From: a virus
Virus record (IMG/VR): IMGVR_UViG_3300021061_000034
Location: 1 to 39,950 of that record
DNA: 39,950 nt
Strand: one strand, 5' to 3'
Under the pieces are notes generated by a model. It saw only the letters and a program-made list of their open reading frames with translations. It was not told the origin of the DNA and did not search any database. A program made the translations under genes and the position numbers. Below, piece by piece: positions 11,114 through 35,475 of this stretch (within the stretch, counting starts at the first letter, position 1; each line of letters starts with the position of its first letter).

Positions 11114-11976
11114 ATAGGACGTTTGGGGAGGCGCTTCTAGAATATATGAAGCAGCCCGAAACCATGCGTCTTAAGTCCTACCAGAGCTTAAAGAGCGTGG
11201 CTAACCTCATTAGGCCATATCTCGAAGACGTACCGCTGGAACAAACCCCGGAAAAAGCCGAAGAAATGAAACAGGTTTTTCTTGCCGAAGAGCTTAATTC
11301 AGCAACGATCAACCGTCGGCTTGCGCTGGTTAGACGGATATTGAGACTCGCCTATTTCTCTTGGAAATGGCTTACACAACCTCTTACTGTCACCCTGCTT
11401 CCCGAAGACAATGAACGGCATATTTACCCGGAACCAGACATCGCGGCGGAACTAGCTGCCACATGTACGAGCAAGGACGACGGGGACGCCCTTCTTTTCA
11501 TCTACTTCACCGGGGTACGAAGGGGTGAGTTCTTTAGGATCAACAGGAACCCAGAGGCATACATCAAGGACTACGTTTTAGCCCTTTATTCAGGGAATAA
11601 AACCAAACGACCAGGGAGAATCCTAATAGCAGAGGGCATAAGGCACATAGCGGACCGTATGCCGCTAAAAATTACCAAGGACTCAATCCGGTATCACTTC
11701 GAAAAAGGACGCGCCCTGGTAGGCCGTCCAGAGCTTAGATTGCACGATTTCAGGCATGGTTTCGCAAGCCTCATTATCGAATCAGGCGGAGATATTTTGG
11801 ACGTTAAGAAGCTTTTGAGGCATACCACGATAAAAACCACCGAGCGGTACACCCATTTGCTGGATAAGCGTTTACACAAGATAGTGAGGAAAGCTGACCG
11901 CGTGGCGGCGGGAAAACGGCGGGACAAGGAACAAACGGAGACAGTCTCAAATGACAAAGAACTCGCAATTGCTTGA
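10939..11976 (+). CDS. int: Tyrosine-recombinase integrase
   Basis: 345 residues. An N-terminal arm-binding domain (PITKRNGVWYARVQVGNQRI) and a core-binding SAM-like helical domain (~55-150) precede the catalytic domain. All catalytic residues are visible: R194 (FTGVRRGE), K221 (SGNKTK), H269 and R272 (LHDFRHG), H295 (LLRH) and nucleophile Y304 (TERYTHL). It catalyses site-specific exchange between attP and a bacterial tRNA gene. The stop lies 6 bases from the attP core. The start overlaps xis, so expression of the two is linked. The 3' end of the gene contains one arm-type repeat (11907-11922). Confidence 0.95.
   Translation: MPITKRNGVWYARVQVGNQRIERSLGVGATKEQAKELEASLRKRLLEDRHAKRVGKSLNRTFGEALLEYMKQPETMRLKSYQSLKSVANLIRPYLEDVPLEQTPEKAEEMKQVFLAEELNSATINRRLALVRRILRLAYFSWKWLTQPLTVTLLPEDNERHIYPEPDIAAELAATCTSKDDGDALLFIYFTGVRRGEFFRINRNPEAYIKDYVLALYSGNKTKRPGRILIAEGIRHIADRMPLKITKDSIRYHFEKGRALVGRPELRLHDFRHGFASLIIESGGDILDVKKLLRHTTIKTTERYTHLLDKRLHKIVRKADRVAAGKRRDKEQTETVSNDKELAIA
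11907..11922. repeat. attP arm-type repeat, left copy
   Basis: GGCGGGAAAACGGCGG lies inside the 3' end of int. A copy with a single base difference is at 12127-12142, in the same orientation on the other side of the attP core. Flanking directly repeated sites are where tyrosine integrases bind with their N-terminal domain. Confidence 0.6.
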
Positions 11977-11982
11977 TTTTAA

Positions 11983-12039
11983 TGGTGCCCAAGGCCGGAA
12001 TCGAACCGGCACGGGGGTTGCCCCCCAACGGATTTTAAG
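11983..12039 (-). other. attP: attP core: 3' half of a tRNA-Leu(UAA) gene
   Basis: On the minus strand these 57 nt read as tRNA from the anticodon loop (CTTAAAA, anticodon TAA) through the anticodon stem end TCCG, the long variable arm with a GGGGG/CCCCC stem that marks class II tRNAs, T arm CCGGTTCGATTCCGG and acceptor end CCTTGGGCACCA. The 5' half is absent. Integration at this core would rebuild a complete tRNA-Leu in the host. It is 6 bp past the integrase stop. Confidence 0.85.
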
Positions 12040-12100
12040 AGCGAAGTGTTATGTCCTGTTATCAAGGTTTTCAAAGAGATACATAGGACAGAGAGGCACT

Positions 12101-12142
12101 AAAACGACACAAAACGACTACGCAACGGCGGAAAAACGGCGG
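12101..12142. repeat. attP right arm: repeated AAAACGRC motifs
   Basis: AAAACGAC occurs at 12101-12108 and 12111-12118, exactly one helical turn (10 bp) apart. GGCGGAAAAACGGCGG at 12127-12142 repeats the motif as AAAACGGC and matches 11907-11922 at 15 of 16 bases. All four are in the same orientation, as expected for integrase arm sites. Confidence 0.6.
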
Positions 12143-12220
12143 AGTGACAACCTAATTTTTTGCCTATTTTCCTGCAATCTTGAAAGAGATATAAAACACA
12201 AAAAAGCCCAGGGAGGGGTC

Positions 12221-12670
12221 ATGAGAATGATAACGTGTCTCGCATGCTTCATTTCACTCAATGCCTACGCTGGCGACGTGTCCATTCAATTCAACGGAAG
12301 GTCTTACCACATCGAAGATGGATACAACCAATCCAACAACGGTGCTGGAATAGAGTACGAAACTGACCACGGATCGTATTTTAGAAAACTTACCGCTGGG
12401 TCTCTTAGAAACTCTATGAACGACACGAGCCTTTACGCTGGAGCTGTATGGGCGTGGCGGCTTAAGGGTGATTTGCTGGACTTGGACGCAGGGGTTTATA
12501 CGGGGTTAATGACTTATCCGAGCTACAAAGATGGGAACGCCTTTCCTGTGTTACTCCCTACGATTTCCATAGGAACCACGACAGGAGGCGTTAACTTCAT
12601 ATGGATTCCTGATCGCGGGAAAGAGCTACCAGGAGCGATGTTTGTTCAGGCGAGAGTAAAGCTTTTCTAA
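12221..12670 (+). CDS. Secreted beta-rich protein beside attP (lysogenic-conversion cargo candidate)
   Basis: 149 residues from ATG 12221, with GGGAGGGG 3 bases upstream; the longer frame from 11951 runs through attP and is rejected. MRMITCLACFISLNAYA is a signal peptide, probably cleaved after AYA. The rest alternates short beta strands (SIQFNGRSYHIEDGY, then LYAGAVWAWRLKGDLLDLDA) and ends with aromatic VKLF, typical of an outer-membrane barrel. I recall similar small proteins in prophages but no assigned function; a PagP-like fold is possible. It sits outside int at the prophage end and likely has its own promoter. It overlaps the o-spanin gene tail to tail by 4 bases. Confidence 0.7.
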   Translation: MRMITCLACFISLNAYAGDVSIQFNGRSYHIEDGYNQSNNGAGIEYETDHGSYFRKLTAGSLRNSMNDTSLYAGAVWAWRLKGDLLDLDAGVYTGLMTYPSYKDGNAFPVLLPTISIGTTTGGVNFIWIPDRGKELPGAMFVQARVKLF

Positions 12671-23570: not shown

Positions 23571-24605
23571 TTAAGCGATCAGCACGCCGCAGAACTGCGG
23601 CCCGCTGGAGGTCATGTTGCCCGCCCAACCGATCAGCTTAACAATCGCGTCCTGGTTGACGGCTTGACGCTCACCGCCAATAGGCACGAAGTTACGATCA
23701 CGATGAGGACGGAAGAAGAGGAAATCAGTGTTCAGCGCCCACATGTGAGCGGAAGTTGCACCGCTCGAAGACACCGACGAACTTACCGCACCACTGATAC
23801 CGCCACCCAAAACCACGTCAGCCGCCATACCGCCGCCGTAGAACTTCAATTCAGGGCCAAACCCAGCACCGGCTGAACCTGAACCGCTCTCAGACGTGAT
23901 GCGCTGGATGGACTGAAGAGAATTGACGTACAGGGAGTAATACGTGGTATCCGCTACCCATAGATTCGGCTTGTTCGAACCGCGAACCAGACGAAGACCG
24001 AGCGTGGTCATGTATTTCTGAATGTTCGTGGCGCTAACAGCACCACCGCCATCCGCCACACCGGCATATTTCTGAGAACGCCAGAACGACCACGTAGCGC
24101 GATTGATACCGCCGTAAGTTCCCGTCGTCGGGTCATCCGGCACCGCCGCCGCAAGACCCGTCAGGTTCTTGCCACTATTTCCCGTACCGTCTTGGTACAG
24201 GTCATAGTCAATGCGATTCATCAACTGCGCTTCGGTGACTTTGATGCGTCCTTCCATGAGGTCGATGATTTGCTCCTTGCTTGCGTTCTGGAGCATTTCA
24301 AGACCGGACATGGTGACGGCACCGGCATACTGCGCGATGGAAAACTGCGCCGCACTGATGGGGCTGTTGGGACTGATGTCGAGAACTTCATAACCCGAAT
24401 ACGAGTTCACATTGATGGAACTCGAATCGGAATACATGATTTCTTCGAGGATGACGTTACCGCCACCGAAGGGACGAATATTTCCCTTCGCCTTGAGACG
24501 ACGGAGCAACGCGTTATTGTTGGTAACGTTGTCCGCCAGCTCGCCGGAACGATTCTGGATGGTCGTGGCGATAATGTCCGTGATTGCACTATTTGCAAAG
24601 GCCAT
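23571..24605 (-). CDS. Major capsid protein (HK97-fold)
   Basis: 344 residues. DIIATTIQNRSGELADNVTN, ALLRRLKAKGNIRPFGGGNV, and the ISPNSPISAAQFSIAQYAGA segment are typical of a podovirus/siphovirus HK97-fold capsid family. VTEAQLMNRIDYDLYQDGTG includes the spine helix. The C-terminal part FFRPHRDRNFVPIGGERQAV resembles the P domain end. It assembles the icosahedral head. The gene has a good ribosome site and follows the scaffold gene, the usual order. Confidence 0.85.
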   Translation of the reverse strand: MAFANSAITDIIATTIQNRSGELADNVTNNNALLRRLKAKGNIRPFGGGNVILEEIMYSDSSSINVNSYSGYEVLDISPNSPISAAQFSIAQYAGAVTMSGLEMLQNASKEQIIDLMEGRIKVTEAQLMNRIDYDLYQDGTGNSGKNLTGLAAAVPDDPTTGTYGGINRATWSFWRSQKYAGVADGGGAVSATNIQKYMTTLGLRLVRGSNKPNLWVADTTYYSLYVNSLQSIQRITSESGSGSAGAGFGPELKFYGGGMAADVVLGGGISGAVSSSVSSSGATSAHMWALNTDFLFFRPHRDRNFVPIGGERQAVNQDAIVKLIGWAGNMTSSGPQFCGVLIA

Positions 24606-25939: not shown

Positions 25940-26277
25940 TGCAGTAACAAGGTGACCGCGATTTCCTCTTCTTCCTGACGCTCTCGAATGACATTAAGCA
26001 ACCAGGACTTGTAGGTTTCGTTAGCCTCAAGACGCGACCAATCCACCGTCTGGATAGACGGGAGTTCGGATTTGCTAACGGTTTGAATAATCTCTTGAGC
26101 CTTCTCTTCGGTTTTGGGATCACCGAGCGCGATTTCGAAGGCTTGCTCTAACTTACTTCTGAGGCTTTCTTTGTCTTCACGGATTCGCTTACTGCGTTTG
26201 CGCTCTCCGTCGTGTGTGTCCTCTACTACAACTATCGTGCTATCGGTAAAGCTGTTTAAGAGGAACGTTAGAAACAC
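25936..26277 (-). CDS. Small protein between portal and scaffold, unknown
   Basis: 113 residues. A hydrophobic start (FLTFLLNSFTDSTIVVVEDT) is followed by a strongly charged helical part (GERKRSKRIREDKESLRSKL, then ETYKSWLLNVIRERQEEEE). It could be membrane-directed or a helical scaffold-like partner. Not recognised. The ATG overlaps the portal stop by one base. Confidence 0.6.
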   Translation of the reverse strand: MFLTFLLNSFTDSTIVVVEDTHDGERKRSKRIREDKESLRSKLEQAFEIALGDPKTEEKAQEIIQTVSKSELPSIQTVDWSRLEANETYKSWLLNVIRERQEEEEIAVTLLLQ

Positions 26278-28586
26278 TAATTAACGACCTCTGGAAGTTC
26301 TTCAGAGGTCCACACGCCATCTGGACCCTTCGTGACCTTCGCTCGCTTCTTCCTGGGCTGCATGGACTGCTGGATAGACTCGTTAAGCTGCTGTACAGCC
26401 TGAGAAATACTGCTTGCCGCTTCTTGGTAAACCTCCACGCTCGCCTCGGACATCGTTTTGATGTTCTCAGCAATCTGCGCAAGGTCTTTAGCGGCATTGG
26501 ACAAGGTGTTATCCACGTCCGCTTCTTCTTTAAGTCTTGTGGCTTCTTGGAACTTGCTCTGGATGTCCGTTACGGACTTCGTGTAGTTCTGTTCAAGACC
26601 AAATGCTTCTTCACGGAACCCAAGTGCCTGTTCCTTCGCGCCGATCTCTAATCCTTTCTTGTCCAGTTCGAGGCCCTTCTTATCAAGCTCAAGGGCGGCT
26701 TTTTCGATATCGGTCCGCGTTTGCATCAACTGACTTTCACGGTCCATCAGCTCTTTCTTACTGTTCTCGATCTCCATCATCGCCTGTTCGACCTGCTTCG
26801 CCTTCTGGTCAATCTCGGCGTTACGTTGCTCCAGCTCTTGCTGAGGCATGACAGGGTTTTGTTTAAGTTGCTCGATGGTTTCTTCGAACGCGGCCTCTAC
26901 CGTCTTACCGACTTTGAACCCTCTTACCGCGAACTTAAGTAGTTCGCTCATCAGGGGAAGCATCTGCGGAGCTTGAGCGACGATTGGCTGCGTGTTCGCC
27001 ATGAACGAACCGACCGCTGTGAGGAATTCAGTTCGTGATTCCTTCTCGGCTTGTTCATCAAGGTAAACAAGCGTGTCCGCAGCGATCTCAATGCGGAAGG
27101 ACCGCATGGGATTTGGGCCAGGAGGCGAATCAGGGTTGGCCGCTCTCTCAGGCCCAATAAGCAATTCCAGAGCCTGCGGAACAATCTTCCTATCCGCTTC
27201 CGATAACTGATCCGCGCAACTGATCTTGAGAATCGTGTCCGGCGAGAAATGCCCGCAAATGATCTGCGCTTTGATCTGCAATACTTCGGTAGCGTATCTC
27301 GCCACTTCTTCTTGGTACTGCTTTAATCGAAGGCTCGCGTACTGGCCTTTGATTTGTTGAGCTGTGGCAGTCTCTGAGGCTTGAGTCTGACCACGGATAA
27401 TGTCCGAGATACCAGTGATCTCGTAAATCTGCCCCTTGATTTGCTCCATCGCTCCATAGGCTTCTCTTAACGCCTCGGCGATGGGTTTAAGGTCTACGAG
27501 AGAGATCGCACCTTGAAGGCCGTTCTTCTCGGCGAACGCGGCCCATTCCTTAACGGGGATCAGCGTGCCGTTAGAACCTTCCGTGAAGATACGGGCCAAC
27601 GCGGGGATAGAGGCGTCATAACCACCGGTAACCTTCAGCGCCTTTATAAGACCGTCTATGCGGTCGCAGATAACGTCCAACGCGACGGCTTGGTCCTGAT
27701 AAAGATAGAAATCAGGAACCGGAACCAATTTGTCATTGGTGAGTGTTGCGAATAGTGGCTTTGGACACGGGAAGAAGTCTTCCAGCCCTAACGGGTCTGG
27801 CTTCTCGTCTAAAACCTGCTTCATGGACGGACTCATCCAGATAGCGGTTTTGGTCTGCTTGTCCCAAATCTCGTAAATCTTGGCGCGGCTGCGGTTCTCG
27901 TCGCCACCAGCCTGTTTGTTCTTCTCGTCGTCCGGCTTGGAATCTAGGGGAATCTTCTTTCCCAATTCCTCGCCGAACCGCTCGATACATTGTTCACGCG
28001 TGAGATAGACGATACGCCAGACTGCGGTTACTTCTTCCCAAGTCCTAGCAACAGTGTGGCCAAAATCTCTCCAGTGAACGTAGTCGCAGGGGGAACATTC
28101 GTAATCAAGTTCCTCACCCGGCTTATCCTGGTCTTCAGAGATTTGATCGCCTTCTACCGGAAGGCCCTGCTCAACGGATTTGAAGTGTGGTTCATATCTG
28201 ACCCACGCTGTACCTCTGCCTCCAAGGAACCTGTCATAAATCGACGCCCTCAGCATCGAGGCGTAATCGTTGTATTTCTGTACTTCGTATTCCAAAGCAC
28301 GTTCAAGGATTAACGAGGCGACACGACCTACTTGGTCGTTGTCCTTGAATCTACGGCTTACGTCGGGCTTGGGTAGCTTGGCAAACGTCGCCGCTGATAA
28401 TGTCTGGACGTTCGACCAAAGGATATTGAACTTGCTTGAATCGTCCCCGGTCTTGCGGTTCTCATCCCGATAGCGCTTGAGGATTTTGACGACACGCGAT
28501 TCCCAATCTTTGAACTCGCGTTCATACCCTGCGATGTGTCCAGCCCACTTCTCTACTTCTGGGCTGACCTGCTCTTTTTTGGCCAT
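26277..28586 (-). CDS. Portal protein (P22-like podovirus type)
   Basis: 769 residues. The N-terminal domain (YEREFKDWESRVVKILKRYR, FNILWSNVQTLSAATFAKLP) and DYASMLRASIYDRFLGGRGT are standard for the P22/podovirus portal family. DYECSPCDYVHWRDFGHTVA lies in the wing; the region YGAMEQIKGQIYEITGISDI with RGQTQASETATAQQIKGQY is the most conserved. The C-terminus from about residue 590 is a long coiled coil (ELEQRNAEIDQKAKQVEQAM) forming the barrel inside the head. Twelve subunits make the DNA channel and terminase dock. A perfect 8-bp inverted repeat (26286-26310) lies at its 3' end. Confidence 0.85.
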   Translation of the reverse strand: MAKKEQVSPEVEKWAGHIAGYEREFKDWESRVVKILKRYRDENRKTGDDSSKFNILWSNVQTLSAATFAKLPKPDVSRRFKDNDQVGRVASLILERALEYEVQKYNDYASMLRASIYDRFLGGRGTAWVRYEPHFKSVEQGLPVEGDQISEDQDKPGEELDYECSPCDYVHWRDFGHTVARTWEEVTAVWRIVYLTREQCIERFGEELGKKIPLDSKPDDEKNKQAGGDENRSRAKIYEIWDKQTKTAIWMSPSMKQVLDEKPDPLGLEDFFPCPKPLFATLTNDKLVPVPDFYLYQDQAVALDVICDRIDGLIKALKVTGGYDASIPALARIFTEGSNGTLIPVKEWAAFAEKNGLQGAISLVDLKPIAEALREAYGAMEQIKGQIYEITGISDIIRGQTQASETATAQQIKGQYASLRLKQYQEEVARYATEVLQIKAQIICGHFSPDTILKISCADQLSEADRKIVPQALELLIGPERAANPDSPPGPNPMRSFRIEIAADTLVYLDEQAEKESRTEFLTAVGSFMANTQPIVAQAPQMLPLMSELLKFAVRGFKVGKTVEAAFEETIEQLKQNPVMPQQELEQRNAEIDQKAKQVEQAMMEIENSKKELMDRESQLMQTRTDIEKAALELDKKGLELDKKGLEIGAKEQALGFREEAFGLEQNYTKSVTDIQSKFQEATRLKEEADVDNTLSNAAKDLAQIAENIKTMSEASVEVYQEAASSISQAVQQLNESIQQSMQPRKKRAKVTKGPDGVWTSEELPEVVN

Positions 28587-29092: not shown

Positions 29093-30433
29093 TCAAATTC
29101 TCCTACTGGCTGGTTTAACTGACTGCCACATTTCATCGAGTGTTACACCGTGGCCGTTGCCTACCGTGAGTCCTCGGATTGGTTTGTCTTGTGTTGATTC
29201 CACAACAAGCTCTCGCATCATCTGGCACCCGTAGGCGTAAGCATCGGATGGATGAGACGCCCAGTTGTGTACGGGGTCGCGAGAGAAGATGTTTAGCTCT
29301 TCGTTCCACTCGAATTCCCACGCCATGAGGCCGTCTACGCCTCTCTCACATCGCGTCTTGTGGAATTCACATCTATCGATGATCGAGCGAGCTGCACTTA
29401 TCTGATCTGCTTTCTTTGATTGCGGGACAATGCTTACCTTGTCCGAACCGAAAGCTGTCACGAACTGCTCGATGGTCGAGTGTTTCGTTTGAAACGTCTT
29501 GATCTTGGCGTCATGGGGAAGCCATATCTTTCCGAGCTTGGCTCTACTCACGCCATGACTTTCAATACGACCCATGAGGCGCGGAATCCAATCCTCCGCG
29601 TCCATGTGAATATCTTGGTCGTAGTCGAAAATCGAAAACCCGCCGACTTTAGGCTGCCAGAACCACCAAGAGGCGGTATCTCGGTAGCCTAGGTCTGAAC
29701 TGATGTGGATCGGTGCGCCTTCTCGGTCGTAATCCACACCTTCGATGATTCGCCCTTCTCTCTCGGCCTTGCTTACCCACTTAGAGAGAATCGACCCGAT
29801 ACCAGCGCCGTAAGCCCCGTTCCAAATGTGTTCCGCCTTATCTGGATCGGTCGCGAAGTCGTGTTCCATCTCTTTCCTGAGAACGTCAGGAAACCACGGG
29901 TTATCGCGCCAATTGACTTGAACGGATATCGCGTCTGGCGGTGGGTACTTCCTAAAGAACACATCCACCGGGTCCGTCTTGTGTCTTGGGTTCCAGGAGA
30001 ACCAAAGCTCCGACCCTTCTTTACGGATTGTGGGTCGCAACATATCCAGTGAGTGCTGGCTCAATGTTTGCGCTTCTTCCACCCACGCTATGTCATACGC
30101 TTCCAACGACTTGATGTTGTCAGCGTTATACGACTGCATTCCCTTGAAGATGATTAGGGAGCCGTTATAAGCCCTAATCTCTGTGTCCAGGACTTGGAAA
30201 GACGCTTCAAGCCCTAGCTTCGCAATTTTGTCGCTTAGGAGCTGCTTTACAGAATCCTTGATGGTGTCTTGGACTTCGCGAATACAAACGACTCGCGTTT
30301 TCTGCCTGTAACACCGAAGGATGATCTGTTCCGCGAAGAAGTGAGACTTTGCCCCACCTCGTCCACCGTATGCTCCCTTGTATCTCTTAGGCTGTAAGAG
30401 CGGGAGTAACTTCCTCGGTACTTCTACTCTCAC
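29093..30433 (-). CDS. terL: Terminase large subunit (Terminase_3/PBSX-like)
   Basis: 446 residues. Walker A-type GGRGGAKS (23-30) and Walker B DIAWVEEAQ (114-122) define the packaging ATPase; FSWNPR (145-150) is the coupling motif. The RNase H-like nuclease has D247 (SSDLGYRDT), D308 (LPHDAK) and D397 (SHPSDAYAYG). It cuts concatemers and pumps DNA into the procapsid through the portal. It overlaps the small terminase gene by 4 bases. The subfamily is compatible with headful or with fixed-site packaging; that is not decided here. Confidence 0.95.
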   Translation of the reverse strand: MRVEVPRKLLPLLQPKRYKGAYGGRGGAKSHFFAEQIILRCYRQKTRVVCIREVQDTIKDSVKQLLSDKIAKLGLEASFQVLDTEIRAYNGSLIIFKGMQSYNADNIKSLEAYDIAWVEEAQTLSQHSLDMLRPTIRKEGSELWFSWNPRHKTDPVDVFFRKYPPPDAISVQVNWRDNPWFPDVLRKEMEHDFATDPDKAEHIWNGAYGAGIGSILSKWVSKAEREGRIIEGVDYDREGAPIHISSDLGYRDTASWWFWQPKVGGFSIFDYDQDIHMDAEDWIPRLMGRIESHGVSRAKLGKIWLPHDAKIKTFQTKHSTIEQFVTAFGSDKVSIVPQSKKADQISAARSIIDRCEFHKTRCERGVDGLMAWEFEWNEELNIFSRDPVHNWASHPSDAYAYGCQMMRELVVESTQDKPIRGLTVGNGHGVTLDEMWQSVKPASRRI

Positions 30434-33191: not shown

Positions 33192-33236
33192 CTAGCACTT
33201 CTTCCCTTTACTACCGGTGCGTTTCTTGGGTTTCAC
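33192..33236 (-). CDS. Possible 14-residue lysine-rich microprotein
   Basis: From GTG 33236 (overlapping the preceding TGA) to TAG 33194-33192, encoding MKPKKRTGSKGKKC. It is extremely basic with a terminal cysteine. Coupled placement in the late operon is suggestive, but length alone makes it uncertain. Confidence 0.25.
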   Translation of the reverse strand: MKPKKRTGSKGKKC

Positions 33237-33394
33237 GCGAAATCTTCTGTCCACCACCATGAAACGTGAATAGGAACAAACGGAATTAGGCACACCCAAC
33301 AGTCAATACAATTGCCGTCTTGCCGCCAACGAGCGCCTAACCAGAATTCCCGCCAACTGAACGTTGCTTCACAATTCCAGCCTTCAAATCTCAT
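33233..33394 (-). CDS. 53-residue aromatic protein, unknown
   Basis: From ATG 33394 to TGA 33235-33233. It is tryptophan- and cysteine-rich (FEGWNCEATFSWREFWLGAR) with one hydrophobic segment (CWVCLIPFVPIHVSWWW), so probably membrane associated. It starts 5 bases past the stop of the Acb2-like gene. Not recognised. Confidence 0.5.
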   Translation of the reverse strand: MRFEGWNCEATFSWREFWLGARWRQDGNCIDCWVCLIPFVPIHVSWWWTEDFA

Positions 33395-33398
33395 CGAT

Positions 33399-33626
33399 CT
33401 ATCCAGTAATGTGCTTAACAGCCCACATTACGGCTTCTTCGATCTTGGTTTTCGCGAGTGAAACCTCACGAGAATTGCCAAGACCGCCAACGAACTCGTG
33501 GAAGTGAAGCCCGAGGTCTTTAACGGTCGTCATGTTTTGCTTTTCGGCATCCGTCAAAACCTTGTACTGATGCCGCATGGTGTTGTTGATGGTGCGCGCG
33601 TCGGACGTGCTTTCTACAGTGGCCAT
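33399..33626 (-). CDS. DUF7681 / Acb2-Tad1 hairpin-like protein (candidate anti-CBASS/Thoeris sponge)
   Basis: 75 residues. ESTSDARTINNTMRHQYKVL is followed by DAEKQNMTTVKDLGLHFHEF and SREVSLAKTKIEEAVMWAVK. This is the helical-hairpin family I recall as DUF7681, grouped with Acb2/Tad1. Acb2 proteins sequester the cyclic nucleotides of CBASS, and Tad1 the signal of Thoeris, blocking abortive infection. The signature (T-D-x-E-K-x-x-M ... SREL/VSLAxTKxEEAVMWAVKH) is very clear; the sponge activity is inferred from family. First gene after the late terminator region. Made late unless it also has an early promoter. Confidence 0.7.
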   Translation of the reverse strand: MATVESTSDARTINNTMRHQYKVLTDAEKQNMTTVKDLGLHFHEFVGGLGNSREVSLAKTKIEEAVMWAVKHITG

Positions 33627-33796
33627 TCTTGGTTCCTCTGGTTGAAGTTGAATAAACCCGCCCCACTGTCCCAGCGTGGATAAATATCCGTGTTTGCGCG
33701 GCTGGCGTTAAAGGGCGGTGATCTGGCGGCCTACTCAAATTCATTCCGAGCAGAATTTGTCCCTTTTCAGGGCGCGTCGATGACGCGATTTCGGCC

Positions 33797-33828
33797 ATAA
33801 AAAGAAAGAGCCTCACAGGGGAGGCTCT
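33797..33828 (-). terminator. Intrinsic terminator at the head of the late operon
   Basis: On the minus strand AGAGCCTC (33828-33821) pairs with GAGGCTCT (33814-33807) across 6 nt, followed by TTTCTTTTTATGG. It lies downstream of the late promoter and of gene 33911-34069 and upstream of the first late gene, so late expression would depend on antitermination. Confidence 0.85.
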
Positions 33829-33910: not shown

Positions 33911-34069
33911 TTAGTGCATGTGACTGTCTAGGGTAAGTGGGTAAGCGGTGTCATGCGTTACTACCCAGAAATCACCTAGAACCACGATATACCCAAATCC
34001 GTTTTCGTCTACGTAAAAGACTTCTGTTTCGAAGACTCGTTTGCCTGACCAATCCTCATCTTGGTTCAT
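33911..34069 (-). CDS. Small late-leader protein, unknown
   Basis: 52 residues from ATG 34069 with an excellent GGAGG 4 bases upstream, ending in TAA 33913-33911. NQDEDWSGKRVFETEVFYVD and YIVVLGDFWVVTHDTAY are beta-rich. It lies between the late promoter and the terminator, so it would be made constitutively or before Q acts. Not recognised. Confidence 0.55.
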   Translation of the reverse strand: MNQDEDWSGKRVFETEVFYVDENGFGYIVVLGDFWVVTHDTAYPLTLDSHMH

Positions 34070-34153: not shown

Positions 34154-34181
34154 AATATAGAATATTTCCCGAGTTTCGCAA
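34154..34181 (-). promoter_or_regulatory. Candidate late promoter (PR'-like)
   Basis: Read leftward: -35 TTGCGA (34181-34176), a 16-bp spacer, and -10 TATATT (34159-34154). It lies in the gap between the Q-like gene and the late genes, the place of lambda PR'. Hairpins and a terminator follow, consistent with Q-dependent read-through. Confidence 0.65.
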
Positions 34182-34230: not shown

Positions 34231-34788
34231 TTACATCGCTGCGACTAATCGCTTCTTGAGCGCGCCAGCGAGAATATCTTCCCACTTATCCACGGTCGCA
34301 ATCTGAATTTCCCGATATCGTTCAGCCCAAGTATCTGACCAGCTCGACTCAAGCATACCTAGAAGTCTCGCGCGGTCGATGCCTCGGATATGTCTCTTAC
34401 CTGTCCCTTGGCATCCATCACAGATGATTACAGGGCCATGTTCAGGTCTTACCTCTCCTCGACCGTCGCACCATGTACACGTATGCGGGTCTACGGCTTC
34501 AGTCATGATGACGTAGGCCATGTCTAACATGAAGTTCTCGCGCGGGTTTCTCCAGCGTTTGTCTCCACGGTAGATCAATGCATGTCTACGGATCGCCTTT
34601 GCACAGTCCTGTGCGTATTCGTGCTGGCCGCAATACTTCACACGTCCGTAGATAGTGACATCATGGTTTTGGATCATCCCTAAAGCATGCGACACGTCAT
34701 TACACGTAAGCCTCGGTATCCCTCCCGGTGCCATGTGGAACCGCTGGACTCTGGCTGTCAGTAATCCTAAAAGCTCTTGTGAGTTCAT
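34231..34788 (-). CDS. Q-type late antiterminator with zinc motif
   Basis: 185 residues. The N-terminal part (VQRFHMAPGGIPRLTCNDVS) and the DnaJ-like cysteine motif CTWCDGRG...CDGCQGTG (C104, C107, C123, C126) match the Q antiterminator family of phage 82/P22-like type. After this comes a helix-turn-helix-like segment (ILAGALKKRLVAAM). It would let RNA polymerase read through terminators downstream of the late promoter. Position, last gene of the middle operon right before the late promoter, agrees. Confidence 0.8.
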   Translation of the reverse strand: MNSQELLGLLTARVQRFHMAPGGIPRLTCNDVSHALGMIQNHDVTIYGRVKYCGQHEYAQDCAKAIRRHALIYRGDKRWRNPRENFMLDMAYVIMTEAVDPHTCTWCDGRGEVRPEHGPVIICDGCQGTGKRHIRGIDRARLLGMLESSWSDTWAERYREIQIATVDKWEDILAGALKKRLVAAM

Positions 34789-34812: not shown

Positions 34813-35475
34813 TTAAGCTAGTGGTTTAACTTCTACTTCTTCTCCGAACTTACTTCCGACATAACATCTCATCGCAGCAACGAGAGGCGTTTCAGCAGAA
34901 TAGAGAACGTGAATGTGTCTTCGGTGGATAGCTCCCCATCTCTGGAACTTGCCATCCTCGTCTAATATCTCAGCGACGTTTATTCCTTCGCGCTCGATGA
35001 TCGGACCGGCTTCTAACCAAGAAGATGACGGCGACCAAGGAACGTACAAACCGTCACTATCTTCGCCGACAGCCTCCCAATGGACATTTGGATTCCACCC
35101 ATCACTCGCTTTGCGGACTTGCACGCCTTCTGCCTTCGCCACCCAGTAATCCAGCTCCGCGCCTTCCAATTCATCTACTTTCTTCTTCACGACTGCCGCC
35201 TCCGTCTTAACCCACATTTCCACAGTCTCTACGCTATCGAATATCAGGATGGGTGCTTTCCAGTTCGCATGGAACTTTCTTTGGTCGTCAGTAAGCTTCC
35301 AGCCCAATCGATGTCCGTCCTTAATTTCTGCAAGCCATGTAGCTCCATCTTTTGCCAAGACAATATCCGGAGCGCCGCGCCCAATAGCTGCGATGCTAAG
35401 AACAGAAAACCCTTTGCTGCGTAGTAACTCAACAATCTGAACATGGTTCCTATCTACCTTTGCGGCGCGGCGCAT
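34813..35475 (-). CDS. Fusion of VRR-NUC nuclease and NinX-like (DUF2591) domains
   Basis: 220 residues. Residues 1-~90 are a VRR-NUC domain: ASAIGRGAPDI-type motif (GRGAPD, 32-37) and AEIK (49-52), which form the PD-(D/E)xK catalytic site. Residues ~98-220 are NinX/DUF2591: LEGAELDYWVAKAEG, YVPWSPSSSWLEAGPIIERE, and TPLVAAMRCYVGSKFGEEVE. VRR-NUC proteins are endonucleases for Holliday junctions or flaps, and NinX is of unknown function. In most phages the two are separate genes. The start overlaps the upstream gene by 26 bases. Confidence 0.8.
   Translation of the reverse strand: MRRAAKVDRNHVQIVELLRSKGFSVLSIAAIGRGAPDIVLAKDGATWLAEIKDGHRLGWKLTDDQRKFHANWKAPILIFDSVETVEMWVKTEAAVVKKKVDELEGAELDYWVAKAEGVQVRKASDGWNPNVHWEAVGEDSDGLYVPWSPSSSWLEAGPIIEREGINVAEILDEDGKFQRWGAIHRRHIHVLYSAETPLVAAMRCYVGSKFGEEVEVKPLA

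Follow-up and report, generated by a model that had tools for sequence, protein, structure and literature searches.

An Acb2-family hairpin protein at the head of the late operon of an apparently temperate phage

Results

The window, a 39,950-base IMG/VR virus record that reads as a temperate phage, carries at the head of its late operon a gene for a 75-amino-acid protein that is a member of the known Acb2 family and that, judging by homology, is likely to act as a sponge sequestering cyclic oligonucleotides late in infection. The protein is a clean and expected example, good but ordinary, whose Pfam domain name would already come from automatic annotation; its branch of the family is large, well conserved and mostly encountered in alphaproteobacterial phages and prophages.

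Gene and family assignment

The putative sponge gene lies on the minus strand, with its ATG at 33626 and a stop codon ending at 33399 (Table 1). Residues 25–29 of the product are T-D-A-E-K and residues 52–72 are SREVSLAKTKIEEAVMWAVKH, which is the motif pattern quoted in the preliminary description of this DNA, where no strand had been given. The plus-strand frame of the same interval, 33399–33626, is interrupted by a stop codon and was not considered further.

The HMM search against Acb2/Tad1 that had been proposed as a check gave 63.6 bits (E = 1.9e-17) to Pfam PF24729 (Acb2_Tad1_hairpin), whose curated cut-off is 27 bits, and this was the sole Pfam family above cut-off for the 75-amino-acid protein; as positive controls, the Acb2 proteins of a T4-type phage and of PaMx33 scored 70.9 and 66.1 bits. 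All 25 members of the close-relative alignment (25 of 25) likewise matched PF24729 and no other Pfam family. When the PDB was searched by profile with the relatives, the nine best matches were Acb2 homolog 43, T4 Vs.4, Pseudomonas p26 (Acb2) and Tad1, at modest E-values (0.0018 to 0.092), and pairwise identity is 26% both to T4 Acb2 and to PaMx33 Acb2. PADLOC and NCBIfam returned no match for the protein, a result that neither supports nor denies the assignment. The open reading frame is not a chance one, since the Pfam E-value is joined by relatives on 228 IMG/VR stretches and by a median dN/dS of 0.17 over 1,736 homologue pairs; the gene is under purifying selection.

Fold and predicted ligand residues

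The AlphaFold model is all-helical, with helices at residues 7–17 (low confidence), 26–47 and 53–74, the last two of which form a hairpin; pLDDT is 97–98 in the hairpin and poor, about 50, over residues 1–20. The preliminary description had staked its proposal partly on a structural match, and Foldseek against the PDB found one to Acb2, the best by probability being T4 Vs.4 with cGAMP (7UQ2, probability 0.99), along with Acb2 bound to 3',3'-cGAMP (8H2J, probability 0.97, rmsd 1.6). The Foldseek E-values are weak (best 0.34), as expected for a helical protein of 75 amino acids. Of the top Foldseek matches in BFVD, those viral models that carry a name are Acb2/Tad1 hairpin proteins.

Aligned with genuine Acb2 proteins, Tyr21 falls on T4 Tyr8 and PaMx33 Tyr11, Lys36 on PaMx33 Lys26 and T4 K23, and Thr60 on T4 Thr68 and PaMx33 T74. 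K26 of PaMx33 Acb2 is a ligand-binding residue of the cyclic-dinucleotide pocket. The Y8A variant of T4 Acb2 is binding-deficient, and T68M reduces binding affinity (PMC12657230). Across 116 distinct homologues, Y21 is conserved in 97%, K36 in 99% and T60 in 93%, percentages that are somewhat inflated because the homologues were gathered by conserved peptide patterns, and there is almost no variation in the AxTKxEEAVMWA core. The HMM, structural and key-residue tests together bear out the earlier claim of membership in the Acb2/Tad1 family.

N-terminal segment and comparison with known Acb2 proteins

In the same 116 homologues the N-terminal SDxRTVNNxMRHxY segment is near-invariant (R11 100%, N14 99%, R18 99%, H19 97%, with the same inflation), and the alignment shows no counterpart to it in T4 or PaMx33 Acb2. 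This segment and the short hairpin are the mildly unusual features of the protein. Relatives such as L114 have the same segment together with a longer hairpin loop and still match PF24729, which links this branch to longer Acb2 forms.

The Acb2 of Pseudomonas phages PaMx33 and PaP2 (p26; PDB 8H2J, 8H2X, 8IXZ) shares with the 75-amino-acid protein its Pfam family, its layout of a short N-terminal part followed by an anti-parallel helical hairpin, and the aligned Tyr and Lys of the cyclic-dinucleotide pocket (Y21 with Y11, K36 with K26), but the hairpin loop is about 25 amino acids shorter in our protein, the conserved N-terminal segment is extra, and the gene stands at the head of a late operon, whereas that of PaMx33/PaP2 stands at the end of a replication module. 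T4 Vs.4, the best Foldseek match, has in common the aligned pairs Y21/Y8 and T60/T68 and the motif IAKTKxxEAxMWA; it differs in having a longer hairpin loop, in lacking the N-terminal extension and in a gene that adjoins regB and vs.3. The 76-amino-acid 'Acb2 homolog 43' (PDB 9PTQ), which gave the strongest sequence-profile match among PDB entries (E 0.0018), also has a short hairpin, but its N-terminus differs; no descriptive paper for it was found in the literature searched. A second short type of Acb2/Tad1 hairpin protein (L126, L127, L129), with an N-terminus like FTYHAP and the core SRExSLAxTKIEEAVMWANASIxRN, was observed in Bacillota and in a deltaproteobacterial MAG.

Position in the late operon

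The plus strand of the window carries an integrase gene, a PagP-like gene and early genes, and the minus strand carries replication initiation, CII-like, NinB, YbcO-like HNH, NinX-like and Q-like genes, after which come terminase, portal, major head protein, an amidase-annotated gene, holin, endolysin and an Rz-like gene. Two further genes are recorded here in their own right: the PagP-like gene adjoining the integrase (11951..12670, plus strand; phrog_3600, lipid A acylation protein) is a possible lysogenic-conversion gene, and a 220-amino-acid product (34813..35475, minus strand) whose C-terminal part is a NinX domain and whose N-terminal part weakly matches a Holliday-junction resolvase (Hjc, E 0.018) is a possible fusion.

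Table 1. Features around the putative sponge gene and in the late operon
Feature	Position	Strand	Details
Q-like antitermination protein gene	34231..34788	minus	185 aa; phrog_127 'anti-termination protein Q-like', E 1.9e-8
Sigma-70-like promoter match, candidate late (pR'-like)	34154..34181	minus	TTGCGA-16-TATATT; 9/12 consensus positions; weak, at chance level
Small leader ORF between promoter match and terminator	33911..34069	minus	52 aa; codon scoring
Intrinsic-terminator-like hairpin	33828..33807	minus	AGAGCCTC-CCCTGT-GAGGCTCT then TTCTTTTT; about 180 bp before the putative sponge gene
Shine-Dalgarno-like AGAGGA	33634..33639	minus	7 nt 5' of the putative sponge-gene ATG; direct sequence reading
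Putative Acb2-type sponge gene (P0001)	33399..33626	minus	75 aa; Pfam PF24729, AlphaFold model, Foldseek, key residues
Small Trp-rich ORF	33233..33394	minus	53 aa; starts just past the putative sponge-gene stop; ORF list
Terminase large subunit	29093..30433	minus, downstream	Pfam Terminase_3, E 5.7e-38; phrog_3717
Portal protein	26277..28586	minus	phrog_12082, E 5.2e-172
Major head protein	23571..24605	minus	phrog_9953, E 2.3e-92

Read along the minus strand, the order of Q-like gene, terminator, putative sponge gene and then terminase, portal and head genes resembles the lambda pR'/tR'/Q arrangement, with the putative sponge gene the first past the terminator; the promoter part of the likeness is at chance level (1 match found, 1.4 expected by chance). 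The hairpin is a candidate tR'-like terminator that Q would need to override: it has a strong fold (z-score −2.4) with a T-run, and the terminator pattern scan found 2 matches where 1.4 were expected. The product of the Q-like gene matched Pfam Antiterm below cut-off only, NCBIfam gave no match for the 52-amino-acid leader ORF, and Rfam found nothing in the window. The placement at the head of the late operon, as first proposed, is supported by the upstream Q-like gene, the intervening terminator-like hairpin and the terminase, portal and major head protein genes that follow. A terminator just upstream of the putative sponge gene is not general, being present in 5 of 127 records (the window counted twice). 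The 53-amino-acid ORF immediately downstream, for which one IMG/VR relative was found (46% identity), may be co-translated with the putative sponge gene.

Placement in relatives

Genes were called by codon scoring, since another caller had overlooked this gene in many GC-rich loci. Homologues repeatedly adjoin genes for portal, head maturation protease, head-tail adaptor, major head protein, terminase or endolysin, as in Sinorhizobium phage Aussie, where the homologue sits between head-tail adaptor and stopper; others neighbour RNA ligase, Sak4, single-strand binding or DNA polymerase genes. Head, packaging and lysis modules are all among the locations of relatives, so that late placement is frequent in the branch. 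The activity of Acb2 has been reported to fall in induction and not in the maintenance of lysogeny (PMC12043709), and acb2-deleted phages have been reported to escape CBASS with the help of major-capsid mutations (PMC10419184); both reports fit a late need. The tension seen initially between the late position and early protection is largely removed by these reports and by the late-module relatives.

Hosts and CBASS co-occurrence

Relatives in genome collections come mainly from Alphaproteobacteria. SMODS (the CD-NTase family) was found above cut-off in 10 of 39 carrier genomes and in 45 of 485 non-carriers (Fisher p 0.004), a comparison in which the carriers span several orders, the non-carriers represent two orders, and non-carrier status in the second order takes account of the one known carrier only. 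Within one order the counts were 3/10 carriers and 25/288 non-carriers (p 0.06), and prophage-control genomes (Terminase_3 without the sponge gene) had SMODS in 3 of 20, not different from the 3 of 10 carriers (p 0.37); a class-wide control was dropped because many of its genomes were very small. Co-occurrence with host CBASS is suggestive and, because it does not rise above genomes with a prophage marker, we do not use it as evidence for a CBASS target.

Discussion

If the protein works as its homologues do, protomers consisting of a short N-terminal segment and a two-helix hairpin would be expected to assemble into a hexamer, in which Tyr21 and Lys36 would serve the pockets that bind cyclic dinucleotides, and the trimer interface would take up cyclic trinucleotides. 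CBASS-type alarm molecules bound in this way would be kept from their effectors, and the cell would stay alive until the phage matures. Expression would begin when Q carries transcription through the terminator-like hairpin, and the sponge would then build up alongside packaging and capsid proteins.

The preliminary description had spoken of an Acb2/Tad1-type protein, and the Acb2 half of that label agrees with the Foldseek probabilities of 0.97–0.99, whereas the Tad1 half does not stand. Tad1 (PDB 7UAV, 8SMD, 8KBE–8KBH) has in common with the 75-amino-acid protein the C-terminal hairpin domain and the SRExxxAxTxxEEAxMW motif, and Foldseek matched 41 residues to it with a probability of at most 0.69, but Tad1 structures carry an N-terminal beta-sheet domain (PMC12043709) that is absent here, where only about 20–25 residues precede the hairpin. 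Solved Tad1 chains, moreover, run to 123–138 amino acids, and Acb2 structures fit better, across the whole length. We file the protein as Acb2-type and not Tad1 because it lacks the beta-sheet domain and is predicted to be all-helical, and we consider it very unlikely that it is an anti-Thoeris sponge with gcADPR capture as its main job. A different role could likewise account for the strong conservation and for the frequent position among head genes. Were the protein a late accessory of virion structure or packaging, with the hairpin fold reused and no part as a nucleotide sponge, this would suit the many relatives whose immediate neighbours are portal, head maturation protease, head-tail adaptor or major head genes. 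We regard this as improbable, given that the residues linked to nucleotide binding are conserved and that the gene in other relatives belongs to early or replication modules or adjoins endolysin genes, so that placement follows no single structural partner.

A further alternative retains the Acb2 homology and moves the main ligand outside classical CBASS, to a type III CRISPR or Panoptes-type nucleotide or to a ligand read by the SDxRTVNNxMRHxY segment. The near-invariance of that segment here and its absence from T4 and PaMx33 Acb2 point this way, as does the fact that cA3 is common to type III CRISPR and CBASS (PMC12043709), but N-terminal conservation may serve hexamer assembly instead, and we see such a ligand as a minor possibility. 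It is likewise conceivable, though doubtful, that this segment and a short hairpin mark out the branch as a separate Acb2 subtype, found for the most part in alphaproteobacterial phages and prophages, in which the segment would complete a new ligand pocket and the protein would be made late against defence signals triggered by capsid assembly.

As a probable Acb2 sponge, the protein extends the known signal sponges by a branch that is well conserved, mostly alphaproteobacterial and, in many members, consistently placed in late modules. A measured ligand would show whether Acb2 made late acts against defences set off by capsid or other late products, and would also show the role of the conserved N-terminal segment.
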